This document shows, piece after piece, positions 2,675 through 47,049 of a stretch of 64,000 nucleotides of DNA (the first letter of the stretch is position 1; the number at the start of each line of letters is the position of its first letter). The stretch is taken from assembly GCF_038593265.1 (NCBI RefSeq), contig NZ_CP151979.1, positions 3,107,001 through 3,171,000 of the forward strand, in the 5' to 3' direction. The notes below the pieces were generated by a model, which worked only from the letters and a program-made list of their open reading frames with translations, did no database searches and was not told the DNA's origin. This stretch comes from Ureibacillus sp. FSL W7-1570. GTDB taxonomy: Bacteria > Bacillota > Bacilli > Bacillales_A > Planococcaceae. Position numbers and translations under genes: made by a program.

Positions 2675-2706
2675 ACCGCTGCTTCGTGGGAAGTGGCGGT
2701 TTTTTA
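2675..2706 (+). terminator. Intrinsic terminator of tagO
   Basis: The stem pairs ACCGC..CTTC with GAAG..GCGGT, with a small TG/TG internal loop, and runs into TTTTTT. It lies 35 bases after the tagO stop. The 21-bp repeat array starts about 25 bases further on. Confidence 0.8.
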
Positions 2707-2730
2707 GTGTGGAAATGAATGTGAGGGACT

Positions 2731-4420
2731 CATCCGGCAAGTGGAATCTGCATCGGGGCAAAAGAGAGTTTTTTCTGTGCAAGAGTTGAAGTTATCCGCG
2801 CGTGAGGAGTAGTCATTCGCGCGAAGTGGTCGTATCCGGGCAAGAGGAGTGATTATCCGAGCAAGAGAAGTGCTTATCCGAGCAAACAGTGGTCGTATCC
2901 GAGCAAGAGAAGGAGTTATCCGGGCAAGAGGAGTGATCGTCCGAGCAAGAGGAGTGCGTATCCGTGCAAGAAGGAGTACCATCCAAGCAAAAAGAGGAAT
3001 CATTCGAGCAAGAGGGAGAGTCATCCACGCAGGAAGAGGAATCATCCGCACGAAAAGAAGTCTCATCCGCACCAAAGAAGCCGCCATCTGCACTAAAAGA
3101 AGTCTCATCCGCACCAAAGAAGCCGCCATCTGCACTAAAAGAAGCCTCATCCGCACTAAAGAAGCCACCATCCGCACGAAAAGAAGTCTCATCCGCACTA
3201 AAGAAGCCACCATCCGCACGAAAAGAAGTCTCATCCGCACTAAAGAAGCCACCATCTGCACTAAAGAAGCCACCATCCGCACGAAAAGAAGTCTCATCCG
3301 CACTAAAGAAGCCACCATCCGCACGAAAAGAAGCCTCATCCGCACTAAAGAAGCCACCATCTGCACTAAAGAAGCCACCATCCGCACGAAAAGAAGTCTC
3401 ATCCGCACTAAAGAAGCCACCATCCGCACGAAAAGAAGCCTCATCCGCACTAAAGAAGCCACCATCTGCACTAAAAGAAGTCTCATCTGCACCAAAGAAG
3501 CCGCCATCTGCACAAAAAGTTGTCTCATCCACACCAAAGAAGCCACCATCCGCACGAAAAGAAGTCTCATCCGCACTAAAGAAGCCACCATCCGCACGAA
3601 AAGAAGCCTCATCCGCACTAAAGAAGCCACCATCCGCACGAAAAGAAGTCTCATCCGCACTAAAGAAGCCACCATCCGCACGAAAAGAAGTCTCATCCGC
3701 ACTAAAGAAGCCACCATCTGCACTAAAGAAGCCACCATCCGCACGAAAAGAAGTCTCATCCGCACTAAAGAAGCCACCATCCGCACGAAAAGAAGCCTCA
3801 TCCGCACTAAAGAAGCCACCATCTGCACTAAAGAAGCCACCATCCGCACGAAAAGAAGTCTCATCCGCACTAAAGAAGCCACCATCCGCACGAAAAGAAG
3901 CCTCATCCGCACTAAAGAAGCCACCATCCGCACGAAAAGAAGTCTCATCTGCACCAAAGAAGCCGCCATCTGCACAAAAAGTTGTCTCATCCACACCAAA
4001 GAAGCCACCATCCGCACGAAAAGAAGTCTCATCCGCACTAAAGAAGCCACCATCCGCACGAAAAGAAGTCTCATCCGCACTAAAGAAGCCACCATCCGCA
4101 CGAAAAGAAGTCTCATCCGCACTAAAGAAGCCACCATCTGCACTAAAGAAGCCACCATCCGCACGAAAAGAAGTCTCATCCGCACTAAAGAAGCCACCAT
4201 CCGCACGAAAAGAAGTCTCATCCGCACTAAAGAAGCCACCATCCGCACTAAAGAAGCCACCATCCGCACTAAAGAAGCCACCATCTGCACGAAAAGATGC
4301 CTCATCCGCACCAAACAAAACCTTGTCTACACTAAACGAAACACCATCCGCACCAAACGAATCCCCATGCACACTCAATGAAGCATCAACACCACCACAT
4401 CCCCCCAATCCCCAGCGCCA
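2731..4420 (+). repeat. 21-bp tandem repeat array 1 (about 80 units)
   Basis: Units of 21 bp with core YATCCGNRCNAA repeat without a break between convergent tagO and the LCP gene. The left part (about 2731-3050) is built on TATCCGAGCAAGAG-type units and is rich in G and A. The remainder alternates two 21-bp forms, containing CCACCATCCGCAC and GTCTCATCCGCAC, giving a 42-bp higher-order unit rich in C and A. A block with CATCTGCACAAAAAGTTG occurs twice, exactly 462 bp (22 units) apart, showing segmental duplication. Units are near-identical in the middle and decayed at both ends, including one 20-bp and one 19-bp unit on the left. The period is a multiple of three and the units lack stops, so several frames on both strands stay open. 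I see no convincing start signal for a protein. Confidence 0.92.
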
Positions 4421-4510
4421 TCAAAATATCCATTTTTTTCAATGAATAGCTTTGAAAGTGCCCGTTCAAACTGGAAAATGAAAAAACTACTCCCCTTTCC
4501 AAAAATAAAA

Positions 4511-4545
4511 AAATACACTCTCAAGCAACATTGAGAGTGTATTTT
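4511..4545 (-). terminator. Intrinsic terminator of the LCP gene (minus strand)
   Basis: A nearly perfect hairpin pairs AAATACACTCTCAA with TTGAGAGTGTATTT around a 6-base loop. On the minus strand it runs into a long T-rich tail. It lies about 110 bases past the LCP stop and bounds the right side of repeat array 1. Confidence 0.85.
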
Positions 4546-4653
4546 GCTGATGGCCACTTTTTATTTTATCTCATGGTGAAGCAGAACATTCTGCCATTAT
4601 TGGCCAATTTATCCGATAAGCCAGTCCATTTTTGATGAATCGAAACACTTCAT

Positions 4654-5727
4654 TTACCGATTAAAACTGGATGAATAGGAAAATGAATCGGAATCGACTT
4701 GCTCTTCATCCCCGCTGCTGAATTCTGAGATGCTTGATTTCGATTTGCTTGGGATGAGGCCCAAATGACTTTTCAAAATTTGTGTTGTTTCTTCCAAAGA
4801 TTCTTCATCCAACATGTAATAGTAAATTCCCGTTGACATGTCGCCTTGTCCTTGCAAGGTGAGTGTATCGATTTGTGGCATGCCGCCGGAGAAATAGGTC
4901 AAGAAAGATTTCATTTCATCAAAGGTCAAGTTGGTTTTCATGTTGTCACCGATCGCCAGGATGACATCATCATATTTTGAGATAGAGGATAAAGAAAGTG
5001 CTTTATTGGCAATGGCTTTCAAAATATCCTGCTGGCGTTCGCCGCGGGCAATATCCGTATCGTGTTTGCGGGTACGGGCAAGAGCCAACGCTTCACGGCC
5101 ATCCAAATGGTGGTATCCTGGTTCCAAATAGATGGAATATTTGTCATTTTCGTCTTTTTCGTAGAAGGCATATGGAATATTCACATCCAGATCAATACCG
5201 CCGAGTGCATCCACCACATCAATGAATGCGTTGAAGTTCATTCGTACATAATAATCGACCGGAATGTCAAACAGTTCTTCCACCGTTTCGATTGTTGCCG
5301 CAGTGCCGCCAAAAGCATGGGCATGGGTGATTTTATCCTCATAGCCCACTTCCGGGATGTATACATATGAATCCCGTGGGATGCTGACCAATTTCACCGT
5401 TTTTTCCTCACGATTCAACGTCATCAACATCAATGCGTCGGAACGGGAATGATCGGAACCTTGCGCGCGCACCTCACTGTCATCGACGCCGATGAACAGA
5501 ATCGATATGTTGTCGCTCAATGCTTCCGCTTTTGCGTCCCTTTTCGGGGAGGACTGTCTATCCTCAATCTCTTCGTATGATTTATTCGCCGCATATTCCG
5601 CTTTCTTCGTCAAATAAATTCCATAAGCAGTTGCGCAAATCAGGAATGAAGCCGCCAAAATTGCAAATACTATAAGTACCAAAGAAAATTTTGTCGGCCG
5701 TTTCTTTCTTTTTTCCGTTCTTTTCAT
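4654..5727 (-). CDS. tagV: LytR-CpsA-Psr (LCP) family wall polymer ligase
   Basis: LCP enzymes sit in the membrane and transfer lipid-linked teichoic acid or related glycopolymers to peptidoglycan. The 357-residue protein has a basic N-terminus, one membrane segment at about residues 15-35, and an extracellular LCP catalytic domain. That domain shows FIGVDDSE, SRSDALMLMTLN, VKLVSIPRDSYVYIP, the RMNFNAFIDVVDALGGIDLDV region and LARTRKHDTDIARGERQQ; the Arg and Asp residues that bind the pyrophosphate lipid are present. The C-terminus is Ser-rich. It is convergent with tagO across array 1. The position matches B. subtilis tagV (yvhJ), but assignment among TagT, TagU and TagV is by synteny only. 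Confidence 0.88.
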   Translation of the reverse strand: MKRTEKRKKRPTKFSLVLIVFAILAASFLICATAYGIYLTKKAEYAANKSYEEIEDRQSSPKRDAKAEALSDNISILFIGVDDSEVRAQGSDHSRSDALMLMTLNREEKTVKLVSIPRDSYVYIPEVGYEDKITHAHAFGGTAATIETVEELFDIPVDYYVRMNFNAFIDVVDALGGIDLDVNIPYAFYEKDENDKYSIYLEPGYHHLDGREALALARTRKHDTDIARGERQQDILKAIANKALSLSSISKYDDVILAIGDNMKTNLTFDEMKSFLTYFSGGMPQIDTLTLQGQGDMSTGIYYYMLDEESLEETTQILKSHLGLIPSKSKSSISEFSSGDEEQVDSDSFSYSSSFNR

Positions 5728-5845
5728 AAAAACTCTCCTCTATCGTACGTAGGAATGTTGGTTTTGTTAGGCTTATTATGGCTTCAAAAATAAGAATCAT
5801 CACAGGGAAATCTTATGCGAAAAGCAAAATCATTCAATCCTTTAA

Positions 5846-5874
5846 ATTATACTACTTTGTCGAATATCAGTAAA
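5846..5874 (-). promoter_or_regulatory. SigA-type promoter of the LCP gene
   Basis: On the minus strand TTTACT (5869-5874) is separated by 17 bases from TATAAT (5846-5851), about 120 bases upstream of the LCP start. Spacing and -10 box match the vegetative consensus. Confidence 0.6.
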
Positions 5875-5943
5875 TTACAAAAAAATGACAAAGTGTTTTT
5901 TACATAAAAATACATATTTTTTGTGAAATCGCACATAAATGGA

Positions 5944-6579
5944 TCAGGAAACCACTTTTTCAATGAAAATTTTGTCGATGCATGCAATTTTTGCTTGCCC
6001 GTTTGTCAATTCCGTCATCCATTCCGTAAAGGCCTGTTCATCATCTTTCAATACATGGATGATCATATCCACATTCTCAGCATATTGTATGTCGGCTAAC
6101 GTATATTTTGAATTGCGGACTTCATTCTCCACTTTGCCAAGCCAAGTGTAATCGATTGTCACTTTCATGACGTGATGCAGTCTTCTTTCCACCACTTGGG
6201 CGGCGGCAATCCCTTCCGATGTGGCTTTTCCGTATGCACGGACGAGGCCGCCTGCACCAAGCTTGATGCCCCCAAAGTACCGTGTCACCACAACCACCGT
6301 ATCTTGAAGGCCCTGTTTTTTCAGCACTTCCAACATAGGGACGCCGGCTGTTCCGCTAGGTTCCCCATCATCATTCGCTTTCTGAATTTGATTATGCTCG
6401 CCGATCAAGTAACATGAGCAATTGTGTGTTGCATTATAATGAAGTTTCTTTATTTTATTGATAAAATTAATGGCTTCCTCTTCCGTTTCAGCCCGATCCA
6501 CATACGCGATAAAGCGGGATTTGGAAATGACAATTTCCTTTTCACCAAATCCTTTGACAGTTTTATAGTCCTTTCGCAT
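5944..6579 (-). CDS. yvyE: YigZ/IMPACT family protein
   Basis: This 211-residue protein belongs to the IMPACT/YigZ family. Relatives have an N-terminal domain related to ribosomal S5-like folds and a ferredoxin-like C-terminal domain; their biochemical role is not settled, though links to translation regulation are proposed. Visible family blocks are KSRFIAYVDRAETEEEA, THNCSCYLIG, NDDGEPSGTAGVPML and VVVTRYFGGIKLGAGGLVRAY. The start is ATG 6579, preceded by AAAGGAG on the minus strand (6588-6594); an upstream in-frame start gives 13 more residues but has no ribosome binding site. It stands divergently from degS, as yvyE does in B. subtilis. Confidence 0.9.
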   Translation of the reverse strand: MRKDYKTVKGFGEKEIVISKSRFIAYVDRAETEEEAINFINKIKKLHYNATHNCSCYLIGEHNQIQKANDDGEPSGTAGVPMLEVLKKQGLQDTVVVVTRYFGGIKLGAGGLVRAYGKATSEGIAAAQVVERRLHHVMKVTIDYTWLGKVENEVRNSKYTLADIQYAENVDMIIHVLKDDEQAFTEWMTELTNGQAKIACIDKIFIEKVVS

Positions 6580-6747
6580 TACAAATACTCCTTTATCTTC
6601 CAAAAAAACAATGTGCATGTAATGGAATTTTTTCTTAAATCTTCTTTGTAAAATGGTATAATAATGTTAAAATAATATACTCATTTAACTATTAAAACTG
6701 ACTTATATAGTTTTATTATATTACACCAATTGGGTTGGGGACAAATT

Positions 6748-7902
6748 ATGTATTTAGATGAAAAAAACAAAATTGACTTCCAATCAATTGATTTTATTTT
6801 TAATCGAATGATTGAGAACATCACCAATTCGAAAAATGATATTTTCGTCATTTGCGAACAAAGTCGCAGAACTTACGAAGAAATGAAAATTGAATTGGAA
6901 CTGATCAAACAAAAATTGAAAGTCGTCATCGCGAAAAGTGATACTTTGGCCAGACAAACACAAATGGCCAAGCAACGGCTGGTGGAAGTCAGCAAGAATT
7001 TCGGCAAATATTCGGAAGAGCAAATCAGGGAGGCCTATGAATTGGCCCATGATTTGCAAATGCAGTTATCCCTGTCCGAAGCGGAAGAGAAAAGCTTGCG
7101 GGAAAAACGGGATGATCTTGAACGCCGGTTAAAAGCCCTGTACGATACGATCCAACGGGCGGATCATATTGTAAATCAAGTGAATGTCGTGTTAAATTAT
7201 TTAACATCCGATCTGAAAAATGTAGGCGCCGCTTTGGAAGAAGCGAAAATCAAACATGATTTCGGCATCAAAATCATTGCAGCCCAAGAGGAAGAAAGAA
7301 AAAAATTGTCCCGGGAAATCCATGACGGCCCTGCCCAAATGATGGCGAACGTGTTGATGCGGGCGGATTTGATCGAACGAATCTATCGGGATAAAGGGAT
7401 AGAAGAGGCGATGAAGGAAATTTCCGAGCTCAAAGCAACCGTTCGGGAAGCGTTGTCTGAAGTCAGAAGGATCATTTACGATTTGCGCCCGATGGCTTTG
7501 GATGATTTGGGAATTGTACCGACATTGAAAAAATATTTATCTACCATAATGGATTATAATAAAGGTGTGGACGTACATTTCCAGTCTTATAACAGCGAAA
7601 TCCGTTTGCCGTCCAATTATGAAGTCGCCATATTCAGATTGGTGCAAGAATGTGTGAATAACGCTGTGAAGCATGGAAGCCCTACAGATATTTGGGTGAA
7701 GCTTGAATGGAATAAAAACCACCTAAACGTGATTGTGAAAGATAACGGCCGTGGTTTCGACATTGACGAGAAAAGGGAACATTCCTTTGGCATTATCGGC
7801 ATGAGAGAGAGAGTAGAAATTTTGGACGGCTCGATGGAAATTAAAACAAAAATTGGCAGTGGTACGATTGTAATATTTAAGATACCATATCCAAATAACT
7901 AA
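6748..7902 (+). CDS. degS: Sensor histidine kinase DegS
   Basis: DegS is a cytoplasmic two-component kinase that phosphorylates DegU to control exoenzymes, motility and competence. The 384-residue protein has no membrane segments. Residues about 1-180 form a long coiled-coil sensor domain, followed by the HisKA_3 phospho-acceptor EIHDGPAQMMANVLMRADL. The ATPase domain shows RLVQECVNNAVKHG (N box), VKDNGRGFD (G1) and FGIIGMRERV. ATG 6748 follows a G-rich Shine-Dalgarno at about 6732-6740; the upstream TTG at 6730 is less likely. degU starts 40 bases after its stop, so the two form an operon. Confidence 0.93.
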   Translation: MYLDEKNKIDFQSIDFIFNRMIENITNSKNDIFVICEQSRRTYEEMKIELELIKQKLKVVIAKSDTLARQTQMAKQRLVEVSKNFGKYSEEQIREAYELAHDLQMQLSLSEAEEKSLREKRDDLERRLKALYDTIQRADHIVNQVNVVLNYLTSDLKNVGAALEEAKIKHDFGIKIIAAQEEERKKLSREIHDGPAQMMANVLMRADLIERIYRDKGIEEAMKEISELKATVREALSEVRRIIYDLRPMALDDLGIVPTLKKYLSTIMDYNKGVDVHFQSYNSEIRLPSNYEVAIFRLVQECVNNAVKHGSPTDIWVKLEWNKNHLNVIVKDNGRGFDIDEKREHSFGIIGMRERVEILDGSMEIKTKIGSGTIVIFKIPYPNN

Positions 7903-7942
7903 CCGAATTTAAAACAGTCAAACGGTTGAGGGGGAATGCTTT

Positions 7943-8617
7943 GTGACAAAAATCATCATTATCGACGATCATCAATTGTTCCGTGAAGGGGTCAAACGTA
8001 TTCTGGAGTTTGAAGAGTCTTTTGAGGTTGTTGCTGAGGGGGATGACGGCAGCGATATCATCGGTTTATATAAAGAACATATGCCGGATGTAGTCTTGAT
8101 GGACATCAATATGCCAGGAAAAAATGGTGTGGAAGCGACTGCGGATTTGATTAAAGAATTCCCGGATGCAAAAGTTATCATGCTTTCCATTCACGATGAT
8201 GAATCTTACGTTACACATGCATTAAAATCCGGTGCATTGGGCTATATGCTGAAAGAAATGGATGCGGATGAAATTGTGGAAGCCATCAAAGTGGTGGCCA
8301 ATGGAGGTTCCTACTTGCATCCGAAAGTGACGAAAAACTTGGTGGCTGAGTTCCGCCGCTTAAGCGAACATGAAAATAAAGGCAGCTTCCATCAAACAGA
8401 AGTGCGCCGTCCATTCCACTTGCTTACGAAACGTGAATGCGAAGTGTTGCAATTGTTGACGGATGGACAATCCAACCGCGCAATCGGCGAAACATTGTTC
8501 ATCTCTGAGAAAACAGTGAAAAACCATGTTTCCAGCATTCTGCAAAAAATGAATGTAAACGACCGTACCCAAGCGGTGGTTACAGCAATCAAAAACGGCT
8601 GGGTGGAAGTAAGATAA
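7943..8617 (+). CDS. degU: Response regulator DegU
   Basis: This is a NarL/FixJ-family transcriptional regulator of 224 residues. The receiver domain (about 1-120) shows the acidic pocket IIDDHQLF, the phospho-acceptor Asp in [10 protein letters not shown], and the conserved Ser/Thr and Lys switch residues in MLSIHDD and [10 protein letters not shown]. The LuxR-type helix-turn-helix follows, with [31 protein letters not shown] and [11 protein letters not shown] 7943 is preceded by GAGGGGG at 7928-7934. It is cotranscribed with degS. In B. subtilis DegU-P also assists ComK and flagellar gene control; both target sets lie in this window. Confidence 0.95.
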
Positions 8618-9075: not shown

Positions 9076-9612
9076 ATGAAGAACTGGCTAATCTTAACAG
9101 TTGCAGCACTATTCCTGCTAACTGCTTGTAGTAATACAAATTCAAAAGAGACACCTTCATCCGAAGAAAATACGAAAGTGCAGTCAGAAGATTCAGTCGG
9201 CTTTGAAATGATTGGCGATAAATTTGTGGAAGCCGAGAATGTTCCGGCAGATGAAAAAGTGAAAATTCTCGCTGCCTTTGATGAATATATCCATTCATTT
9301 AATGCGAAAGACATCAATCGCTACGGAAACGTTCTTTCCAAACATGCAACCGGTTTTGATTATGATGAAGAAATCGAAATGGTGAAAGCAACGTTTAAAA
9401 ATCATGATGTGAAGTTGGTCGAATCGGATGCGACAATCATTAAATATAGTGAAAATGAAGCACAGGTGGCGGCCAATATCGACTATCATGTGAAAGAAAA
9501 TGGCACCGATGCGACACTGAATCGAACAGTGAGACAAGTGACCATCTTCGTGAAAGAAAATGACGGCTGGAAAATCACCCGGATTGTGGGCATGGAGAAA
9601 TTGGATCAGTAA
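9076..9612 (+). CDS. Small lipoprotein with a probable NTF2-like domain
   Basis: The 178-residue protein begins with a lipoprotein signal peptide, MKNWLILTVAALFLLTAC, with lipobox LTAC and lipidated Cys18. A Ser/Glu/Asn-rich linker (about 19-60) follows. The rest, with the HSFNAKDINRYGNVLSKHA region and a final ITIFVKEND-type strand ending GWKITRIVGM, resembles the alpha/beta cone of SnoaL/DUF4440-type NTF2-like proteins. The fold is inferred from pattern and no catalytic role can be named. The start is ATG 9076, preceded by GGGAGG at about 9060. It is a single gene after degSU, is absent from this place in B. subtilis, and is followed at once by repeat array 2. Confidence 0.8.
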   Translation: MKNWLILTVAALFLLTACSNTNSKETPSSEENTKVQSEDSVGFEMIGDKFVEAENVPADEKVKILAAFDEYIHSFNAKDINRYGNVLSKHATGFDYDEEIEMVKATFKNHDVKLVESDATIIKYSENEAQVAANIDYHVKENGTDATLNRTVRQVTIFVKENDGWKITRIVGMEKLDQ

Positions 9613-9623: not shown

Positions 9624-9658
9624 GAATCATTCAATCAGTTGATTGGATGATTTTTTAT
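9624..9658 (+). terminator. Intrinsic terminator of the lipoprotein gene
   Basis: The stem pairs ATCATTCAATCA with TGATTGGATGAT and is followed by TTTTTTATTTT, 13 bases past the stop codon. Array 2 begins immediately after it. Confidence 0.85.
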
Positions 9659-9660
9659 TT

Positions 9661-11610
9661 TGGACAGGTTTGGGGGAGGGGAGGGGATGTCCTGGGTGAG
9701 AGGGAGTGCATCTGGGGAAGGGGAGGGAGTATCTGAGTGAGAGGAATGCTTATCCGCGCAAGCATGGGTTGCATCCAGGTAGGGAGGGGATGTCCTGGGT
9801 GAGAGGGAGTGCATCTGGGGAAGGGGAGAGATATCTGAGCGAGAGGAATGCTTATCCGCGCAAGCATGGGTTGCATCCGGGTAAGGGAGGGGATGTCCTG
9901 GGTGAGAGGGAGTGAATCCGGGTAAGAGGGGGGAGTTAGGGATGCTATCCGAGCAAGAGGAGGAGTTATCCGAGCAAGAGGGAGTGCTATCCGAGCAAGA
10001 GGAGTAGCTATCCGAGCAAGAGGGAGTGCTATCAGAGAAAGAGGGAGTGCTATCCGAGCAAGAGGAGGAGTTATCCGAGCAAGCAGAGAGCGTATCCGAG
10101 CGAGAGGGAGTGTTATCCGAGCAAGAGGGGATGTTATCCGAGCAAGATGAGGGCTTATCCGAGCAAGAGGAGGAGCTATCCGAGCAAGCAGGGGCCGCAT
10201 CTGAGCTGGAGTAGGAATCCGAGCAAGAGGGGATGTTATCCGAGCAAGATGAGGGCTTATCCGAGCAAGAGGAGGAGCTATCCGAGCAAGCAGGGGCCGC
10301 ATCTGAGCTGGAGTAGGAATCATCCGCACCAACCGAGGCCGTATCCACACTAAATGAAGGAGTATCCGCACCAACCGAGGCCCTATCTGCACCAAATGAA
10401 GTATCAACCGCACCAAACGAAGCCGTATCCACACAAAATGAAGTAGTATCCGCACCAACCGAGGCCGTATCCACACAAAATGAAGTAGTATCCGCACCAA
10501 CCGAGGCCGTATCCACACAAAATGAAGTAGTATCCGCACCAACCGAGGCCGTATCCACACAAAATAAAGTCGTATCCGCACCAAACGAGGCCCTATCTTC
10601 ACCAAATGAAGTAGTATCCGCACCAACCGAGGCCGTATCCACACTAAATGAAGGAGTATCCGCACCAACCGAGGCCCTATCTGCACCAAATGAAGTATCA
10701 ACCGCACCAAACGAGGCCGTATCCACACTAAATGAAGTAGTATGCGCACCAAACGAGGCCGTATCCACACTAAATGAAATAGTATCCGCACCAACCGAGG
10801 CCGTATCCACACTAAATGAAGGAGTATCCGCACCAACCGAGGCCCTATCTGCACCAAATGAAGTATCAACCGCACCAAACGAGGCCGTATCCACACTAAA
10901 TGAAGTAGTATGCGCACCAAGAGGCCGTATCCACACTAAATGAAATAGTATCCGCACCAACCGAGGCCGTATCCGCACCAAATGAAGTAGTATCCGCACC
11001 AACCGAGGCCCTATCTGCACCAAATGAAGTATCAACCGCACCAAACGAGGCCGTATCCACACAAAATGAAGTAGTATCCGCACCAAACGAAGCCGTATCC
11101 ACACAAAATAAAGCCGTATCCGCACCAAACGAGGCCGTATCCACACAAAATGAAGTAGTATCCGCACCGAACGAGGCCGTATCCACACAAAATGAAGTAG
11201 TATCCGCACCAAACGAGGCCGTATCCACACTAAATGAAGCACCAACCGCACCAAACGAGGCCGTATCCACACTAAATGAAGGAGTATCCGCACCAAACGA
11301 GGCCCTATCTGCACCAAATGAAGTATCAACCGCACCAAACGAAGCCGTATCCACACTAAATGAAGGAGTATCCGCACCAAACGAGGCCCTATCTGCACCA
11401 AATGAAGTATCAACCGCACCAAACGAGGCCGTATCCACACTAAATGAAGTAGTATCCGCACCAAAAAAAGTCGTATCCGCACCAAACGAGGCCCTATCTG
11501 CACCAAATGAAGTAGTATCCGCACCAAACGAGGCCGTATCCACACTAAATAAAGCACCATCCGCACCAAGCCCACCCCAAATAAGGAGGCATCCCCACTG
11601 AATAAAACAG
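9661..11610 (+). repeat. 21-bp tandem repeat array 2 (about 90 units)
   Basis: This is the same family as array 1. It starts in very G-rich sequence (GGGGGAGGGGAGGGG), with a higher-order block of about 103 bp (five units, some only 19-20 bp) present about 2.5 times around 9687, 9790 and 9892. Units with TATCCGAGCAAGAGG follow, and from about 10320 units with TATCCGCACCAA and TATCCACACTAAATG, ending in C-rich sequence (CCCCCCCACCCC). Blocks of several units recur in the right half. One unit near 10915 has lost two bases relative to its twin at about 10743, and several left-hand units are off-length. These shifts break every long reading frame, which argues against a coding role. It fills the convergent gap between the lipoprotein and HD genes. 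Confidence 0.92.
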
Positions 11611-11654
11611 CACCAAACCAAAAAGCACCCCCCCACCCCAAAGCACAACCTCCA

Positions 11655-11687
11655 CACAAAAAAAGAGCGAATCATCACCATTCGCTC
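11655..11687 (-). terminator. Intrinsic terminator of the HD-domain gene (minus strand)
   Basis: On the minus strand GAGCGAAT and ATTCGCTC form an 8-bp stem with a 7-base loop, followed by a T tract. It lies about 50 bases past the HD gene stop and bounds array 2 on the right. Confidence 0.8.
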
Positions 11688-11736
11688 CAATCAAAAAGTG
11701 TGCGCAAAGCAGAGAAGCTCCGCGCCACCATCCACC

Positions 11737-12603
11737 TTATAACTTCGATTTATTTTTTTCCACATACTTGAACAGTTCCTGATCGGACCATTGCAATTTG
11801 TTTTGCAGCGCAATGAAAAATGCTGCCAAAATGAGCGGGCCTTCCGAATTCATTTCAAACTGCATTCCTTGGGAAGAGAGATCTTCCAACTTGTCCAAAA
11901 GATGTTCCTGTTCATCCCGATACAGTTGTTCCGCCTCTTCCACGATGCATTCCACAAACCGGAGCAATTGCCGGGACGCCAATTCTTTACCGACATGTTG
12001 ATTGATATGAAGATACGCGCATTCAAAAATCAGGGAAATTTCCTGCTCCGAAAGAAAATCAATGGAACCGAAAACCGCTTTCACTTCTTCCTCCAAATCG
12101 CCAATCAACGGAAATTCCCTCTTTCTTCGTGAAAGCGCCTTCACAATGCTTGAATAATACCAATGCTGCTCCCGCTTTCCCCGATTGAACCGTTGCCAAA
12201 TGGCATCCCCCATCACATCCAAATCCTCGTGAATCGTCTGCAAATTATGGAGTTTATCAGCCACAATGACTTGCAGTTCTTCCAAAGAAGCGTCTTTTAT
12301 ATGCTCAATTGTGTGCTGCTTTCTCACTTCCCAAGGCAAGCTTTTGTCCTGCTCGGAGGCTGATTGCACGAGAATTGCGATGCGGAGTCCGAATTCATCT
12401 TTCAACTCCTCAAATGTCGTATCCGTATCTTCCAGCGTATCATGCAAGATTCCGGCAGCAATCACTTCTTCGGAACAGTTCGCCCGCTGCAGCATCATCC
12501 CCACTGCAAAAGGGTGTGTTATGTATGGGATATCCGTCCCTTTCCGCACTTGATTTCTATGTACTTTCGCAGCAAATACAATCGCTTTGTCTACAATGTT
12601 CAT
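11737..12603 (-). CDS. HD-domain phosphohydrolase related to (p)ppGpp hydrolases
   Basis: The first 150 residues of this 288-residue protein carry the metal-binding HD motifs of the RelA/SpoT/MESH1 hydrolase family: AAKVHRNQVRKGTDIPYITHP, GILHDTLEDTDTTFEELKDEFG and VIVADKLHNLQTI. No synthetase, TGS or ACT domain follows. The extra C-terminal 130 residues (acidic and helical) are not recognised. It could hydrolyse (p)ppGpp or another nucleotide; the substrate is unproven. The start is ATG 12603, set by GGAGGGTG just upstream on the minus strand; a longer frame of 17 extra residues lacks a ribosome binding site. Confidence 0.82.
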   Translation of the reverse strand: MNIVDKAIVFAAKVHRNQVRKGTDIPYITHPFAVGMMLQRANCSEEVIAAGILHDTLEDTDTTFEELKDEFGLRIAILVQSASEQDKSLPWEVRKQHTIEHIKDASLEELQVIVADKLHNLQTIHEDLDVMGDAIWQRFNRGKREQHWYYSSIVKALSRRKREFPLIGDLEEEVKAVFGSIDFLSEQEISLIFECAYLHINQHVGKELASRQLLRFVECIVEEAEQLYRDEQEHLLDKLEDLSSQGMQFEMNSEGPLILAAFFIALQNKLQWSDQELFKYVEKNKSKL

Positions 12604-39520: not shown

Positions 39521-40075
39521 ATGCTAAACTTTAACATTCGCGGTGAGAACATTGAAGTAACTCCAGCAATTCGAGAGTACGTTATCAACAAAGTTCAGAA
39601 AATTGAAAAATATTTCAATGAAGGAGTTAACGCAACTGCCAATGTAAACTTGAAAGTATACAATGACAAGAAAGCGAAAGTGGAAGTAACAATTCCGTTG
39701 AAAAACTTAACGCTCCGTGCCGAAGAACGTCATGAAGATATGTATGCAGGAATTGACTTGATTGTAGATAAACTTGAACGTCAAATCCGTAAACATAAAA
39801 CAAAAGTCAACCGCAAGCTCCGTGACCGTGAAGGTGTAGGCGTTTACTTCGCCGGCACTTCTGTTCCAAACAATCATGAAAACGGAAAAGAAGAAGAATT
39901 TGAAATCGTTCGTACAAAACAATTTGATTTGAAACCAATGGACGAAGACGAAGCCATCCTTCAAATGAACCTGCTCGGCCATGACTTCTATATTTACACT
40001 GATGCGGAAACAAACAGCACTAACATCGTTTACAGACGCAAGGACGGAAAATACGGCTTAATCGAAACAACTTAA
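39521..40075 (+). CDS. hpf: Long ribosome hibernation promoting factor
   Basis: Long HPF dimerises 70S ribosomes into inactive 100S particles in stationary phase or stress. The 184-residue protein has the N-terminal HPF/YfiA domain (MLNFNIRGENIEVTPAIREYV, YNDKKAKVEVTIPLKNLTLRAEE, DMYAGIDLIVDKLERQIRKHKTK) and the C-terminal dimerisation domain (VRTKQFDLKPMDEDEAILQMNLLGHDFY, YRRKDGKYGLIE). ATG 39521 follows AAAGGAGGAG; an upstream start at 39467 would bury the promoter and ribosome binding site. SigB- and SigH-like promoters precede it, as for B. subtilis yvyD. Confidence 0.95.
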   Translation: MLNFNIRGENIEVTPAIREYVINKVQKIEKYFNEGVNATANVNLKVYNDKKAKVEVTIPLKNLTLRAEERHEDMYAGIDLIVDKLERQIRKHKTKVNRKLRDREGVGVYFAGTSVPNNHENGKEEEFEIVRTKQFDLKPMDEDEAILQMNLLGHDFYIYTDAETNSTNIVYRRKDGKYGLIETT

Positions 40076-40130: not shown

Positions 40131-40146
40131 CACATTAACGATAATG

Positions 40147-40485
40147 CATGGGGGGGTTCAGAGAAGGGGTGTGACATGCTTTCACATAAGCTGCCGCAGT
40201 CATTACGGAGGCTCCTGAAGGTTGCGCTTCATACTTCCACACAAGCCGCCGCAGCACGTACAGCCGCCCCTGAAGGTTGCGCTTCATACTTCCACACAAG
40301 CCACCGCAAAATCGTACAGCGCTCCCCTGAAGGTTGTGCCACACTGCTGCACAAGCGCCGCAGCACGTACAGCCGCCCCTAAAGTTTTTGGGTTAGCCGC
40401 CCAAAATCGTATAGCATCCCCTAAAGTTTTTGGGTTAGCCCCCAAAATTCGTACAGCACTTAAATATTATGTCTGCTCCCCCATG
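40147..40485. repeat. Repeat cluster with 55-60 bp and 42-bp units between hpf and the EamA gene
   Basis: Three copies of a 55-60 bp unit start near 40219, 40274 and 40333 (GGTTGCGCTTCATACTTCC, CACAAGCCGCCGCAGCACG, TACAGCCGCCCCTGAA). Two copies follow of a unit with CCTAAAGTTTTTGGGTTAGCC, CCCAAAATCGTA. The left edge is G-rich with CATGGGGGGG (40147-40156) and the right edge carries CCCCCATG (40478-40485), an inverted pair. The cluster fills the 40076-40527 convergent gap. On the minus strand the last two units contain TTTTGGG/CCCAAAA hairpins. No gene is supported here. Confidence 0.8.
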
Positions 40486-40527: not shown

Positions 40528-41442
40528 TTATCTGTTATTCTTCAAGTGATGACCAGTAGCTGCCCCCGTTCCGATGTTGCGATTCACCAAATAAATGCTT
40601 GAACCGACCAACATCATCCCGATAAACAAATTTTTAGTGATGGCTTCATCCAAAAAGATGGCACTGACGAAGACGGAGATGATCGGCACTAAAAACGTAT
40701 AGGCGCCGACTTTGCTTGCTTCCCCTTCATTCATCAGTTTAAAATAAATCACTTGCCCCGCAGCCATTCCTGCCGTTCCGCCCCAAACGATGGTGCTGAT
40801 CAAATCTACGTTCCAAACGATTGCATGGACGCCTTCAAAGAAGTACCCGGAAAGGAGAAGCGTTCCGCCGCCAAGGATCAATTGCATCACGACCATCCAA
40901 TAGAAATCGATGCGGGTTTTTAATTTCTTGACAAAAATGACCCCGCTGGCCCAAGCAAGTGCCGTGGCAAGGGCGAGAATCACCCCGATGGCCGAGAGAT
41001 GGATCATCAAGCCATCCATGCTCACCAGCACAATCCCGGTAAAGCCGAGCACCAGGCCTGCCATTTTGGCGATGGTCATCTGTTCATTCAAAAGCCACCA
41101 GGACAAAATGCCGAGCAGCACCGGCTGGATGTAGACAAGCACGGAAAACAGTCCCCCCGGCAAATACACCATCCCGACCGTTTGCAGGCCAAGGTAAAGG
41201 ATATTATTTAAAATTGCCGAGATGACGTAAAACTTCCAATGTTCTTTGAACCGGATCAAATGCCGCGATTTCCACGCGAATATGAACAGGAGGATTCCCG
41301 CGATAAAGGAACGGATGCCGGCGAAGAGGAGCGGAGGCATAAATTGAACCCCATGTTTATAGATGGGCCAGCTCACACCCCAAATGATGATTAACAAGGC
41401 AAGAAGTATATAGGAAACGGATGGATTTTTCCTTTCTGACAA
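40528..41442 (-). CDS. EamA/DMT-family membrane transporter
   Basis: This is a drug/metabolite transporter superfamily permease of 304 residues with ten predicted helices in two EamA repeats. It begins SYILLALLIIIWGVSWPIYK, and the second repeat starts near IGVILALATALAWASGVIFVKKL. The substrate is unknown; relatives export amino acids or metabolites. The start TTG 41442 follows GAAGAAGG on the minus strand; a longer frame with ATG 41487 is possible but lacks a comparable signal and adds a non-membrane extension. It is convergent with hpf and divergent from the kinase gene at 41666. Confidence 0.85.
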   Translation of the reverse strand: MSERKNPSVSYILLALLIIIWGVSWPIYKHGVQFMPPLLFAGIRSFIAGILLFIFAWKSRHLIRFKEHWKFYVISAILNNILYLGLQTVGMVYLPGGLFSVLVYIQPVLLGILSWWLLNEQMTIAKMAGLVLGFTGIVLVSMDGLMIHLSAIGVILALATALAWASGVIFVKKLKTRIDFYWMVVMQLILGGGTLLLSGYFFEGVHAIVWNVDLISTIVWGGTAGMAAGQVIYFKLMNEGEASKVGAYTFLVPIISVFVSAIFLDEAITKNLFIGMMLVGSSIYLVNRNIGTGAATGHHLKNNR

Positions 41443-41665
41443 TGGACAACCTTCTTCCGTAGCGTAGTGGCTTTGATGGGTGCCCATTAGTATATGTGGA
41501 AATTCCATGATTGGTGCCCTTTTGGAGATGCAGGCATTTGGCCTTTTCCTGCCTCCTCCATCTGACCTTATACAAATTGCCGGTTTTGAATATTTTCATC
41601 CATGCCATAAAAGAATTAAAATAAATTAAAAATTCTACTAGGGTTTGACAAAAGGAGCAAAAGTC

Positions 41666-42490
41666 ATGACATTACCTAAAGCATGTACAGTGGCAGGAGC
41701 AGCGGCCCGCAGTGGTGCCGGCATCCAGGCGGATTTGAAAACCTTCCAGGAACTTGGGGTGTACGGGTTTACGGCCATCACTGCCATCAACGCCAAACAT
41801 CCAAGCAAAGAACAAGGCTTGTTCATCCAGCCTTTAGATGCCATCGAAGCGCAACTTCTCATCATCAATGAACAAGAGGACATCGATGCATTGAAAACCG
41901 GCATGCTCTTTTCAAAGGAAATCATTGAATTGGTGGCAAATTGGCTGGAAACCGCTTCAATCGAAAACATCGTCGTCGATCCGGTGATGTTCGGGAAATT
42001 CGGCTCGCCACTCCTTGATTTTGATGCGATGGAAACGCTCAAAACGAAGCTGATTCCACAGGCGACCATCATTACGCCGAATATGCCGGAAGCCACTTAT
42101 TTGCTCGGCGGCCAGGAAATCAACTCCATCGGGGATTTGCAGGACGCGGCAAGAGACCTTCTGCAGCTCGGTCCAAAATATGTGCTTGTGAAAGGCGGCC
42201 GTCTTGAAGGGCCGGCAGTGGACATTTTGTACGATGGGAATAAAATGATCCGATTGGAAGCCCCTCGAATTGATACCATCCATACTAATGGCGCAGGTTG
42301 TTCCTATTCGGCAGCCATCACGGCGGAACTGGCGAAAGGAAAACCGATTGAAGAAGCGGTGGCGAATGCCAAAAAGTTTGTCACAGCGGGCATCAAACGC
42401 TTCATTCCTTTCGAATATGCCCCTGGAATGATTGATCATCGCGCTTATAAGCTGTATGGGGAAGAGGAAGTGCAAATAACGGAAGTTTAA
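41666..42490 (+). CDS. pdxK: Pyridoxine/pyridoxal kinase or HMP kinase (PdxK/ThiD family)
   Basis: This ribokinase-superfamily enzyme phosphorylates pyridoxal or hydroxymethylpyrimidine. The 274-residue protein shows GIQADLKTFQELGVYGFTAITAI, DALKTGMLFS, VDPVMFGKFGSPLL, TIITPNMPEATYLLGG, YVLVKGGRL and the anion-hole/base motif HTNGAGCSYSAAITAELAKG. The N-terminal substrate loop is unusual: TVAGAAARSGAGIQ replaces the common AGSDxSGGAGIQ. ATG 41666 follows AAAGGAG. PdxK is preferred over ThiD from overall resemblance to bacillal PdxK and its single-gene context; substrate preference is uncertain. Confidence 0.8.
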   Translation: MTLPKACTVAGAAARSGAGIQADLKTFQELGVYGFTAITAINAKHPSKEQGLFIQPLDAIEAQLLIINEQEDIDALKTGMLFSKEIIELVANWLETASIENIVVDPVMFGKFGSPLLDFDAMETLKTKLIPQATIITPNMPEATYLLGGQEINSIGDLQDAARDLLQLGPKYVLVKGGRLEGPAVDILYDGNKMIRLEAPRIDTIHTNGAGCSYSAAITAELAKGKPIEEAVANAKKFVTAGIKRFIPFEYAPGMIDHRAYKLYGEEEVQITEV

Positions 42491-42494
42491 TTGG

Positions 42495-42540
42495 TGAAAG
42501 GCAGTGTGTGTTGGTGTCCCGGCATAAACTGCTTTTCTTA
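42495..42540 (+). terminator. Probable terminator after pdxK
   Basis: AAAGGCAGT and ACTGCTTT form a stem over a long loop, followed by TCTTATTTG. Confidence 0.5.
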
Positions 42541-42689
42541 TTTGTGAGAATCCCCATTCCCCCAATCCATTTCCATTCATTTTCTCCCTTCCAATTTATT
42601 GTCTTTTGAGCAATAATAATTGTGGTTCATACTGTCATCTTTCTCCCGATTAAATCTGACAACTTCTTTAAAACAATGGCGCTTATTTG

Positions 42690-42718
42690 CACCAATATTC
42701 CACGAATGATAAAATGAA
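42690..42718 (+). promoter_or_regulatory. SigA-type promoter of secA
   Basis: TTGCAC followed after 17 bases by TAAAAT, about 35 bases upstream of the secA start. Confidence 0.45.
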
Positions 42719-42750
42719 AGTTAAGACTGAATGGGAAGTGAAGATTTTCG

Positions 42751-45258
42751 ATGGCAAATATTTTAAATAAATTATTTGATGTAAACAAAAAAGAATTGAA
42801 ACGGTTGAATAAAATCGCGGATGAAGTGGATGCATTGGCTCCACAAATGGAAAAGCTTTCTGATGAAGAACTTCGCAATAAAACAGAGGAATTCAAAGCG
42901 CGTTATCAAAACGGTGAAAGTTTGGACGACTTGTTGCCTGAAGCTTTCGCTGTTTGCCGTGAAGCCGCGCGAAGAGTGCTCGGCTTGTACCCTTATCGCG
43001 TGCAAGTGATGGGGGCCGCGGTGTTGCATGACGGAAACATCGCTGAAATGAAAACCGGGGAAGGGAAAACATTGACTTCCACAATGGCTGTTTATTTGAA
43101 TGCCCTTCCAGGCGAAGGTGTCCATGTGGTGACAGTCAATGAATACCTGGCAAAACGTGACGCCACAGAAATGGGCAAACTGTATGAATTTTTAGGTTTG
43201 ACGGTTGGGCTCAACTTGAACAGCTTGACGAAAGAAGAAAAACGCGCGGCTTATGCAGCGGACATTACATACAGCACCAATAATGAACTTGGTTTCGACT
43301 ATTTGCGCGACAACATGGTGCTTTATAAAGAGGATAAAGTGCAACGGCCATTAAACTTCGCCATTGTCGACGAGGTGGACTCCATCTTAATCGATGAAGC
43401 GAGAACACCGTTGATCATTTCCGGACATGCAGGGCGTTCCGCCAAACTTTATGTTCAGGCGAATGCTTTCGTCCGCATGCTCAAAAAAGATGAAGATTAC
43501 ACGTATGATGAAACGACAAAAACCGTTACACTTACGGAAAGCGGTATTACGAAAGCGGAAAAAGCGTTCGGTATCGACAACTTGTACGATTTGTCCCATG
43601 TCCGCTTGCTCCATGCCATCAACCAATCCTTGAAAGCCCATGTGGCGATGCACCGGGATGTGGACTATGTGGTGCAAGACGGGGAAGTCATCATCGTCGA
43701 CAGCTTCACTGGCCGTTTGATGAAAGGACGCCGTTATTCCGACGGGCTTCATCAGGCGATTGAAGCGAAGGAAGGCGTGGAAATCCAAAACGAATCCATG
43801 ACAATGGCAACGATTACCTTCCAAAACTACTTCCGTATGTACAAAAAATTGGCCGGTATGACCGGTACAGCGAAAACGGAAGAAGAGGAATTCCGCAATA
43901 TCTACAATATGAACGTTGTGGTGATTCCGACAAACAAACCGGTTGCCCGTATCGACAAACCGGATCTCATTTATGCCACAATGAAAGGGAAATTTGAAGC
44001 GGTGGTCAGAGACATTGCGGAACGCCATGCCAAAGGGCAACCGGTGCTTGTGGGTACGGTGGCCATTGAAACCTCTGAAATCATTTCAGAGATGTTGAAA
44101 AAACATAAAATTCCGCATAACGTATTGAATGCGAAAAACCATGAACGGGAAGCGGAAATTATCGCCCAAGCCGGACAAAAAGGCGCCGTGACCATCGCGA
44201 CCAACATGGCCGGCCGTGGTACGGACATCAAGCTCGGCGAAGGGGTTAAAGAGCTTGGCGGACTTGCGGTCATCGGGACAGAACGCCACGAATCCAGACG
44301 TATTGACAACCAGTTGCGCGGTCGTTCCGGACGTCAGGGGGATCCTGGGGTATCCCAATTCTATTTGTCCCTTGAAGATGATTTGATGCGCCGCTTCGGT
44401 TCCGACAGCATGAAAGCCATGATGACGAAATTGGGGATGGACGATTCCCAGCCGATCCAGTCAAGAATGGTGTCCAAAGCGGTGGAATCCGCCCAAAAAC
44501 GCGTGGAAGGCAACAACTTCGATGCCCGTAAACGTTTGTTGCAATACGATGAAGTGTTGCGCCAACAACGGGAAGTGATTTACAAAGAGCGGAACGCGGT
44601 GTTGGAATCCGAAAACATGCGCGAACTGGTGGAAAACATGATCCGCGAATCCATCGAAAACATGGTGCATACGCATACGGCAGGCAATAAAGATGACTGG
44701 AACTTCAAGGCGATGGAAGATTATATCAAAGCCAATCTCCTCGATGAAGGCGAGATTACGGTGAACGATCTTCAAGATAAATCCCCTGAAGAAATGATCG
44801 AGTTCATTTACGATAAAGTGATTGAACGCTATAACGAAAAAGAACAAGAATTGACGCCTGAGCGCATGCGCGAGTTCGAGAAAGTCATCTTGCTCCGTTC
44901 CATCGATACGAAATGGATTGACCATATCGACGCAATGGACCAATTGCGTCAAGGTATCCACCTCCGCGCTTATGGACAAACAGATCCGTTGCGTGAGTAT
45001 GAGCAAGAAGGTTTCGCGATGTTTGAAGATATGGTTGCCGCCATCCGCGAAGACGTGACAAGATATGCGATGAAAGCACAAATCCGCAGCAACTTGGAAC
45101 GTGAAGAAGTGGCAAAAGGACAAGCGGTGAATCCGAAAGAAGACGGCGAAAAGCCGAAACGCCAACCAATCCGCAAAAAACAGGAAATCGGAAGAAATGA
45201 CCCATGTCCATGCGGCAGCGGCAAAAAATATAAAAACTGCCATGGCGCAATATCCTAA
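42751..45258 (+). CDS. secA: Preprotein translocase ATPase SecA (housekeeping)
   Basis: SecA is the essential motor of Sec-dependent export. The 835-residue protein has the full set. NBD1 shows [39 protein letters not shown] and [19 protein letters not shown]2 shows [30 protein letters not shown] and [10 protein letters not shown]. The helical scaffold ([23 protein letters not shown]) follows. The C-terminal zinc motif [16 protein letters not shown] binds SecB or phospholipid in relatives. The start is ATG 42751. Location before prfB matches B. subtilis; a second SecA begins at 1304. Confidence 0.97.
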
Positions 45259-45431
45259 TGTGATTTTGCATAAGATGGGTTTGTGAAATTCAGGTTTTAC
45301 GTACAATGGTATTTATCCAAAACCGTTGTCATCTTTCCGATGGCGCGGTTTTGTTTCGTGAGGATGTGCATGGCGGCGGGATGCCGCTATTGTTCCCATT
45401 CAAAATCAAATGGATAAATGGAGGAACTTTT

Positions 45432-46542
45432 ATGGAATTATCAGATGTGAGAAACACGTTGGAAAATACAGCCGAAAAATTGGCGGATTTCAGGGGGTCT
45501 CTTTGACTTAGAAAACAAAGAAGCCCGCATTCAAGAGTTGGAAGAAATCATGATGATGCCGGATTTCTGGGATGATCAAAACAAAGCCCAAAGCATCATT
45601 AATGAAGTCAATAGTTTAAAATCCATCGTGAATGAACTGAATGATTTATCTTCCACTCAAGAAAATTTGGAAATGACCCTTGAACTGTTGAAAGAAGAGC
45701 CGGATGAAGATTTGCAGGCAGAGCTCGTCCAGGAGTTGAAAGAGTTCGAGGAAAGATTGGAAAACTTTGAGTTGCAGCTTTTATTAAGCGAACCATATGA
45801 TAAAAACAATGCCATCCTGGAGCTTCACCCGGGAGCAGGCGGTACGGAATCCCAGGACTGGGCTTCCATGCTTCTCCGCATGTATACCCGTTGGGCGGAA
45901 AAACATGGCTTCAAAGTGGAGACGCTGGATTATCTTCCTGGGGATGAGGCCGGAATCAAATCGGTGACATTGCTCATTAAAGGCCATAACGCATACGGTT
46001 ACTTGAAGGCGGAAAAAGGGGTGCATCGCCTCGTGCGCATTTCGCCTTTCGATGCAAACGGCCGCCGTCATACTTCTTTCGTTTCTTGCGAAGTGATGCC
46101 TGAGTTCAATAATGAAATTGAAATCGAAATCCGTCCGGAAGATTTGAAAATCGATACGTACCGTTCCACTGGTGCAGGCGGCCAGCACGTCAACACGACG
46201 GATTCCGCTGTCCGCATCACCCACATCCCGACAGGCATTGTGGTGTCTTGCCAGGCGGAACGTTCCCAAATCAAAAACCGCGAAAAAGCGATGAACATGT
46301 TGAAAGCGAAATTGTATCAATTGGAAATTGAAAAGCAGGAGCAAGAATTGGCCGCACTCCGCGGGGAGCAAAAGGAAATCGGTTGGGGCTCCCAAATCCG
46401 TTCATATGTGTTCCATCCATATTCCATGGTAAAAGACCACCGCACGAATGTGGAGACCGGAAACGTCCAAGCGGTGATGGATGGCGAGATTGACATGTTT
46501 ATTAATGCGTATTTGCGCTCCCAAATCGCATCGAAAAAATAA
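45432..46542 (+). CDS. prfB: Peptide chain release factor 2, with programmed +1 frameshift
   Basis: RF2 reads UAA and UGA stop codons. Translation starts at ATG 45432 (ribosome binding site AATGGAGGAA) and runs 24 codons to an in-frame TGA at 45504-45506. A +1 shift on CTT-TGA continues at GAC 45505 to the stop at 46540, giving about 369 residues. The shift site is AGGGGGTCTCTTTGAC (45492-45507), with an internal Shine-Dalgarno-like AGGGGG. RF hallmarks are [42 protein letters not shown] (GGQ) and [10 protein letters not shown]. The stop anticodon-like SPF motif is present in [17 protein letters not shown]. Confidence 0.96.
45492..45507 (+). promoter_or_regulatory. Programmed frameshift site in prfB
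   Basis: AGGGGG stimulator, CTT slippery codon and TGA stop followed by C, the poor-termination context. This autoregulatory element lets low RF2 levels favour the +1 shift. Confidence 0.95.
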
Positions 46543-46553
46543 TGGATGGTTAG

Positions 46554-46589
46554 CGTGCAGAATCAATGGATGGTTCTGCACGTTTTTTT
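46554..46589 (+). terminator. Intrinsic terminator of prfB
   Basis: CGTGCAGAA pairs with TTCTGCACG over an 11-base loop and is followed by TTTTTTTG. Array 3 starts about 40 bases later. Confidence 0.88.
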
Positions 46590-46630
46590 GTTTGAATAGG
46601 AGCCAATTTTGGCGAAGCACATTGATAGAT

Positions 46631-46985
46631 GTTATTTGTGCAAGTGGTGCTGGGATTTGAGGTGCTATCCGAGCAAGCAGAGGTGCTATCCGAGCAAGCA
46701 GAGGTGCTATCCGAGCAAGCAGAGGAGTTATCCGGGCAAGTCGAGGAGTTATCCGAGCAAGTAGGGGAGTTATCCGAGCAAGCAGAGGTGCTATCCGCGC
46801 AAGTGAAATATGCATTGGCAGGAGTTGAGAGTGAATCTGCACGAAACGCTCCCCCATAAATGCCCATCATCCCCCAATCCCCCTTTATCCCCACTAAATA
46901 AACCATCATCTAACCCCATTTAGGCAGCATCCACACCAATAATGGATTTTATCCCCACAAAGTGGCCTCCCATAGTTCAAAACCG
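46631..46985 (+). repeat. 21-bp tandem repeat array 3 (about 16 units)
   Basis: About eight well-kept units with TATCCGAGCAAGCAG (46665-46820) are flanked by decayed ones. The core is that of arrays 1 and 2 and lies in the same orientation. The right end becomes C-rich (CCCCCATAAATGCC, AATCCCCC, ATCCCCAC). The array follows the prfB terminator and is bounded on the right by a minus-strand terminator at 46998-47049, as if it once lay between convergent genes. No reading frame here has a start signal. Confidence 0.88.
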
Positions 46986-46997
46986 CACCCTCCATTT

Positions 46998-47049
46998 AAA
47001 AAAGAAAAAAGCTGCCAAAAAGTCGATATCAATCCACTTTCAGGCAGCC
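46998..47049 (-). terminator. Minus-strand intrinsic terminator right of array 3
   Basis: Read on the minus strand GCTGCC..AAAGT pairs with ACTTT..GGCAGC and is followed by TTTTTTCTTTTTT. The nearest minus-strand gene is comK, whose stop is 540 bases away, beyond a plus-strand gene. Confidence 0.7.

Follow-up and report, generated by a model that had tools for sequence, protein, structure and literature searches.

Passages of two reports describe the systems closest to the repeats considered here. In Escherichia coli, repetitive extragenic palindromes (REPs) are targets of DNA gyrase, are thought to relieve twist, and occur mostly in gaps between co-oriented or convergent genes (PMC3733652). 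Gyrase sites of the same species are found downstream of operons that are active, and also in part of the bacterial interspersed mosaic elements known as BIME-2; the gyrase motif extends over 130 bp, with flanks in which GC content varies every 10.75 bp (PMC6379681). Here we describe 21-bp tandem arrays from Ureibacillus sp. FSL W7-1570, centered on a window of 64,000 nucleotides (positions 3107001-3171000 of the single 3,280,775-bp contig of this organism, hereafter the window genome). Three arrays lie in the window, at 2751-4418, 9709 to about 11570, and 46633-46970, as located by Tandem Repeats Finder (TRF) and direct reading; each of 20 dinucleotide shuffles contained no 21-bp cluster, and an earlier note on this DNA had placed the same three arrays correctly. 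We propose, with a probability of roughly 0.37, that the arrays are helically phased wrapping sites whose most likely partner would be gyrase, and that they resemble BIME-2 in action without being members of it. No description of such repeats was found in open-licence papers, in agreement with the note, whose author knew of no matching system.

The likeness to REPs and BIME-2 is one of place. Both kinds of element are extragenic and repeated, lie past gene ends, and fall mostly in co-oriented or convergent gaps; among 80 array gaps from the window genome and its relatives, 28 are convergent, 49 co-oriented, and 3 divergent, compared with 62, 309, and 117 among 488 ordinary gaps. In form they differ: REPs are palindromes of 20-40 bp, often close together in opposite orientation, whereas the array units are non-palindromic and run head to tail in one orientation at a helical period. 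By inspection, units such as TATCCGAGCAAGAGGAGTGAT are not self-complementary, and the RNAs of five array stretches fold no better than their shuffles (z of +0.5, -1.1, +2.4, -1.2, and +1.4). On the folding of these five stretches, the RNA hairpins suggested in the note are not supported. Rfam likewise gave no match above its gathering score within the window, and a known RNA family was set aside as a candidate.

Strong gyrase sites (the Mu strong gyrase site, pSC101) and the E. coli motif share with the arrays a helix-phased variation in G/C content that extends for about 100 bp or longer, and an enrichment downstream of transcription units. The known sites, however, are single sites of 130 bp with a central cleavage part and a 10.75-bp period, whereas the tandem arrays seen here reach 2 kb, have 10.2-10.5 bp per turn, and are not known to be cleaved. 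Like intergenic variable-number tandem repeats (VNTRs) or minisatellites, the arrays are tandem, non-coding, and composed of near-identical neighbors, but their core and their period both recur across genera; to our knowledge, ordinary VNTR loci share neither in this way. A conserved core, more variable sequence between, and a fixed spacing recall clustered regularly interspaced short palindromic repeats (CRISPR), but here the core is about 11 bp and the intervals of about 10 bp themselves repeat along the array. A CRISPR-like array does exist elsewhere in the window genome (L189:12354-14267, contig positions about 3042354-3044267), with a repeat of about 30 bp and a period of 65-67 bp.

Across the window genome we found at least 22 arrays, 20 through pattern searches and two (L179 and L170) in 400 kb of other stretches. 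The array finder recognized L179; L170 was seen by TRF only, was missed by the finder, and is tallied as an ordinary gap. Repeat detection is sensitive to TRF thresholds, genes were called with a home-made hexamer caller, and related species and arrays are not independent trials, although the p-values given below for genes at G-rich ends and for unit clusters treat related arrays as if they were. The 21 tallied arrays lie between called genes, mostly beyond terminators. Their flanking genes are convergent in 9 cases, co-oriented in 12, and divergent in none, whereas ordinary gaps of at least 100 bp in the same stretches number 33, 202, and 70, respectively (p = 0.0004 for convergent, p = 0.01 for divergent). 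An intrinsic terminator stands within 140 bp of 24 of the 30 gene ends that face an array, against 143 of 264 ordinary ends (p = 0.007), and a search reaching up to the array itself finds one at 26 of the 30. The note had called the arrays boundary elements; as far as position goes, with its terminators, convergent enrichment, and scarcity of divergent gaps, this description is borne out.

A scan of 26 of the 42 neighboring genes turned up ordinary functions (glycosyl transferase, LytR family, prfB, class I tRNA synthetases, GatB, thymidine kinase beside prfA, and others) and no member of a transposase, integrase, or Cas family. Both release-factor genes of the window genome adjoin an array: a C-type array (a unit type described below) lies between thymidine kinase and prfA (L014:13277-13486), and in the relative G010 a core pair stands about 0.5 kb before prfA (contig near 977634). 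By eye, from gene directions, we estimate that about 13 of 20 arrays are oriented to the leading-strand side of replication.

Place by itself would be expected if the arrays were neutral satellites, expanded by slippage in promoter-free, non-coding space past terminators and drifting in sequence and length without function. Promoter avoidance alone would yield both the avoidance of divergent gaps and the enrichment of convergent ones, and units that appear by eye homogenized in the middle of an array and decayed at its edges (a pattern the note had also seen) fit such expansion, as does patchy presence at the same gene end. Arrays of fitting period, as defined below, occur past the LytR-family gene beside array 1 in 10 of 24 species of the genus, the window genome included, with two others of 18 and 45 bp; past prfB they occur in 7 of 24, with two others of 11 and 28 bp. 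Neutral expansion is the chief rival, and we consider it possible, if on the unlikely side. It accounts for place but not for a quantized period, A/T phasing, or a shared core: slippage has no preference for multiples of the helical turn.

Period is where the arrays depart most clearly from that expectation. We examined loci of the genus chosen by the genes that border the window arrays and not by repeat sequence, leaving out the window-genome loci L285 and L310 as well as L260. At one orthologous gene end the units differ between species (TTTTGTGCGGATA, CTTGGGC, ATTTTGCCCATTCAG, TTTCGTCCATATAACG, TATTAGAAAATATCA, CTTCAAGAGAATCCATTC, and others), and the arrays nevertheless keep about 20.4-21 bp per two turns; the periods at these ends are 20-22, 41, 42, 98, 102, 103, 105, 123, 124, and 205 bp. 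In 23 of 27 such arrays from 17 loci, the top period lies no more than 0.6 bp from a multiple of 10.2-10.5 bp. When periods were drawn within 35% of each observed one, the mean was 9.7 of 27 and the maximum 19 in 4,000 draws, a null that accounts for the objection that any long period falls near some multiple. Coding repeats were rejected as an explanation, periods of 20, 41, 82, 103, and 205 bp in relatives not being multiples of 3. Because it is the helical period that recurs best across species, DNA rather than RNA is indicated.

Quantized periods in arrays that share a gene end but not a unit could also arise without any selection on sequence, as footprints of a topoisomerase or other wrapping enzyme that acts at gene ends and makes occasional tandem duplications quantized in helical turns. 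Gyrase-mediated illegitimate recombination is known. Footprints alone, however, leave both the shared core and the A/T phase within the unit unexplained, and we think this origin unlikely.

That phase can be followed in individual arrays. Among nine harmonics of the A/T signal, the once-per-turn harmonic was the strongest in 13 of 24 gene-anchored arrays of relatives (1 in 9 expected), a count obtained by adding three filter-dropped arrays to 12 of 21; arrays shorter than 100 bp were excluded, and L265, L269, L278, and L279 had been dropped by the period filter. In the window genome the same harmonic led in 15 of 21 arrays, which share one core. Measured against the helix-phased GC oscillation of gyrase sites over about 100 bp or more, the arrays in these two counts show it and the remainder do not. 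For eight sets of 21-bp units, each from a species or genus and all sharing the core, A/T phasing was seen with p between 0.002 and 0.04. Unit length may be adjusted as well: units of 20 bp are richer in A/T than units of 21 bp (0.68 versus 0.48, p = 6e-8), a difference driven by related Psychrobacillus units and absent in the window genome (G000) and in G010. This suggests that unit length compensates for the shorter helical repeat of A-tracts, although shared descent may be the cause. In Psychrobacillus (L220-L233), 20-bp units carry A/T-rich tails and 21-bp units carry mixed ones. A/T signals near 10.2 bp are very strong in two arrays close to prfB with periods of 51/102 bp (L325:826-1247 and L328:2738-3276), whose units have no obvious ATCCG core.

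The core itself is widely but thinly distributed. The strict core pair, with a spacing of 21 bp, was present in 14 of 250 family genomes, and the relaxed pair in 40 of 261, representing 8 of 19 genera, though some single pairs look coding. After ATCCG, array-rich species continue in dialects of their own: GTCATAAA, AGCATAA, CTCTAAG, CGCATA, AGCAAG, or CACNAAA. When the spacing was allowed to vary from 12 to 36 bp, 27 of 29 genomes yielded 242 core pairs; of the 150 that were listed, 141 had a spacing of 20 or 21 bp, although about 24 of those 29 genomes had been chosen for 21-bp pairs. Psychrobacillus arrays peak at 82 bp per four units and 103 bp per five. The family in question is that of the genome collection, which groups the relatives together; NCBI places Ureibacillus and Sporosarcina in Caryophanaceae and Psychrobacillus in Bacillaceae. 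In a class-wide scan 20 of 200 genomes matched, three of them in the family; the other 17 have one pair each, and several of these single pairs, near-identical between genomes, are perhaps coding. Among the matches listed for a triple relaxed pattern, most are in unrelated phyla and are probably coding repeats or chance, whereas Psychrobacillus sp. OK032, Bacillus sp. FJAT-22090, and Sporosarcina luteola are informative. A small sample of 400 kb of unselected sequence from ten relatives held eight arrays, two of them with a period of 21. In the relative G039, whose genus label is that of Sporosarcina luteola, a 21-bp array of 14.6 copies (L028) lies about 120 bp before an open frame, which we take to resemble an IS256-type transposase.

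A core of this kind could be the target of a sequence-specific protein that lines up along one face of the helix on ATCCGNNCNNA arrays, with 21 bp keeping neighbors in phase. The recurrence of core pairs in up to 8 of the 19 genera, with species dialects, and the spacing of 20-21 bp would suit such a protein, yet some arrays at orthologous gene ends that lack the core keep the period, and we regard the proposal as doubtful.

A repeat length that is usually near two helical turns, with a sequence that varies between species, suggests a role in DNA wrapping, perhaps in relief of the twist made by transcription. Helical phasing, partial independence from the letters, and the absence of RNA structure together direct attention to DNA itself. 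The arrays would then be helically phased elements lying in non-coding DNA on the 3' side of transcription units. Their unit of about two turns has, in most families, A/T blocks (YAT ... AA) that recur roughly every turn and are separated by a G/C block (CCGNNC), and hundreds of base pairs in which A/T and G/C alternate in phase with the helix should bend and wrap easily. The presumed partner would be a DNA-wrapping protein, most likely gyrase, which would be drawn by positive supercoils beyond gene ends and above all between convergent genes, and which the position and phasing of the arrays would suit. Each array could thereby provide a site for wrapping, or a topological buffer separating transcription units, a role proposed for E. 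coli REPs and BIME-2. What the sequences show is position, terminators, period, A/T phase, and the turnover of unit letters; wrapping, gyrase as the partner, and a benefit to the cell are proposals built on them. In its broadest form, which we advance tentatively as one possibility, such arrays would be widespread, sequence-encoded supercoil buffers outside terminators, in which letters turn over while helical period and A/T phase are kept, selected for a shape that gyrase can wrap, and would together constitute, in the Sporosarcina-Ureibacillus-Psychrobacillus family, a counterpart to BIME-2 that is independent and non-palindromic.

Several observations weigh against a wrapping role for the arrays, as does the tendency of long periods, noted above, to fall near some multiple. 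Four gene-anchored periods (28, 45, 98, and 249 bp) are exceptions, although for the 98- and 249-bp arrays TRF also gave 21 and 42 in the same stretch. Units at orthologous gene ends are not fully independent, several of the differing ones having in common a loose TTTTGNNC pattern that resembles the core in reverse. A once-per-turn A/T signal reached p < 0.05 in 13 of 18 unit clusters under a permutation null that is lenient for consensus units of 41 bp or more, and the other five lacked it, including the CTTCAAGAG units at prfB (p of 0.79-0.91). In ordinary gaps, too, A/T power is slightly raised at 10.2-10.8 bp (1.43, compared with 1.04 and 1.21 in neighboring bands). Core spacings of 18 and 19 bp, 11 of each against 54 of 20 bp and 1069 of 21 bp, break the phase; taken modulo 10.5, 61 irregular core spacings gave a weak signal (R = 0.26, p = 0.017). 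The ATCCGNNCNNA core is conserved across genera beyond what a degenerate wrapping site would need, and since only 40 of 261 family genomes have even the relaxed core pair, the arrays are not essential.

If the wrapping reading is true, bacteria other than enterobacteria have encoded sites at which the twist generated by transcription is taken up, and these are specified by the shape of the DNA and not by its letters. Whether topological insulators are written into sequence could then be tested by altering array spacing alone. Even as by-products, repeats quantized in helical turns would inform on how such repeats form.

The note had stressed a different property, a shift from G-rich to C-rich units along the plus strand, and had read into it a rule in which transcription arriving from either gene has the G-rich side as its non-template strand. 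Two main unit types underlie the shift: G-type units around TATCCGAGCAAGAGGAG, with the core ATCCGAGCAAG, and C-type units around CATCCGCACNAAA, with the core ATCCGCACNAAA. The single core YATCCGNRCNAA given in the note for all three arrays therefore suits C-type units but not G-type ones. By exact unit type, eight of the 21 window-genome arrays are C-type only, four are G-type only, eight contain both, and one contains neither. In all eight mixed arrays every G-type unit precedes every C-type unit, and a gene points at the G-rich end of 12 of 12 arrays with G-type units compared with 4 of 9 without (p = 0.006). G-skew falls from the first to the second half in 19 of the 21 arrays: in all 9 that are convergent and, taken in the direction of transcription, in 10 of the 12 that are co-oriented. 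Extended over the genome in this way, the rule keeps its order of unit types and its absence from divergent gaps, but as a strict rule it is contradicted by the 12 co-oriented arrays and by those of a single unit type.

In relatives the rule does not hold generally. Forty loci were fetched from them, of which 33 gave the 34 array gaps counted; no array by our criteria was present in L220, L247, L249, L251, L255, or L258, and both arrays of L240 lack a flanking gene on one side. These arrays were found through the 21-bp core pattern, so that their spacing is partly selected. In 31 of the 34, whether the overall skew is positive or negative goes with the direction in which the unit core runs, and among co-oriented arrays the non-template strand is C-rich in 5 of 6 from Sporosarcina and 5 of 14 from Psychrobacillus. 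With all genomes taken together, skew falls in 24 of 28 convergent arrays and in 41 of 62 ordinary convergent gaps, which often switch too (p = 0.075). Along co-oriented transcription it falls in 34 of 49 arrays and 125 of 309 ordinary gaps (p = 0.0002), but this control is biased, as ordinary co-oriented gaps end in G-rich ribosome-binding sites. The skew rule describes the window genome well but is no general principle, and we rejected it as one.

Transcription could nevertheless act on G-rich, non-template DNA past a terminator by way of R-loops or polymerase pausing, blocking convergent read-through, or could itself have shaped that DNA. The orientation of G-type units toward the arriving gene and the fall in skew in every convergent array of the window genome, together with the co-oriented excess, would be expected on such a mechanism. 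It fits the G-type arrays of the window genome, but the biased control, the unclear difference between convergent arrays and ordinary convergent gaps, and the dependence of skew on unit orientation in relatives make it improbable. A further thought is that the arrays are Rho-dependent back-stop terminators, as the far half of mixed arrays is C-rich and G-poor in the arriving transcript. Rut sites of Bacillus subtilis, according to passages of one report, have more pyrimidine, less G, and more C than G (PMC12350095), and mixed window-genome arrays show that order of composition. Between genera, though, array composition with respect to transcription is not maintained, and there is no evident reason for Rho to need a spacing of 20.5-21 nucleotides; we give this idea very little credence.

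The three window arrays have a common layout, and here the details of the note hold well. Each begins 40-49 bp past a rightward terminator, shifts from G-rich to C-rich from left to right, and is bordered on its right by a hairpin with a leftward T-run, read from the sequence. Array 1 follows the rightward intrinsic terminator (2674-2706, plus strand; fold z of -4.7) of a gene assigned by Pfam to Glycos_transf_4 (1576-2640). Its mainly G-type units, found by repeat finding and in the sequence, occupy 2751-3045 on the plus strand, with a decayed left edge, and are succeeded at 3043-4418 on the same strand by C-type units in a homogeneous 42/105-bp higher-order repeat that decays at its right edge. 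The hairpin to the right (4501-4546, minus strand), identified in the sequence and by the terminator scan, serves the leftward LytR-family gene at 4654-5727; A/T runs on both sides indicate that it is possibly bidirectional.

Array 2 lies beyond the rightward terminator (9625-9660, plus strand; sequence and terminator scan) of a DUF4440 gene (9076-9612). On the plus strand, repeat finding delineates a very G-rich left edge in the form of a 103-bp higher-order repeat of 2.4 copies (9679-9926), and repeat finding and sequence together give G-type units at 9946-10296 and C-type units with a 42-bp higher-order repeat at 10322-11570. The array finder set its bounds at 9709-11737, although the array proper stops near 11570; those bounds had overrun the leftward terminator at 11660-11688 (minus strand; fold z of -3.8 relative to shuffles), which the terminator scanner missed and which belongs to an HD-domain gene (11737-12603; Pfam).

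Array 3 stands past prfB (45538-46542; Pfam PCRF and RF-1), whose rightward terminator is at 46553-46590 (plus strand; sequence and terminator scan). G-type units fill 46633-46825 (plus strand; repeat finding and sequence), and a decayed C-rich part read from the sequence continues on that strand to 46970 from 46826. A strong leftward terminator follows at 46998-47049 (minus strand; fold z of -6.7). The gene to the right is YhjD-like (PF26325; 47254-47634, plus strand) and points away from the array, which is counted as co-oriented in all tallies. It overlaps tail to tail, by about 43 bp, with comK on the minus strand (47592-48119; ComK Pfam). The comK transcript perhaps reads antisense through the YhjD-like gene and ends at 46998-47049, in which case array 3 would also lie between converging transcripts.

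A fourth tandem repeat in the window, at 40140-40460, consists by TRF of 55-bp and then 42-bp units with no ATCCG core seen. It lies between two convergent genes, one S30AE/Hpf-like (39521-40075, plus strand) and the other for an EamA transporter (40528-41487, minus strand), begins G-rich directly after a rightward terminator-like hairpin, and has in its 55-bp period a poor match to helical quantization.

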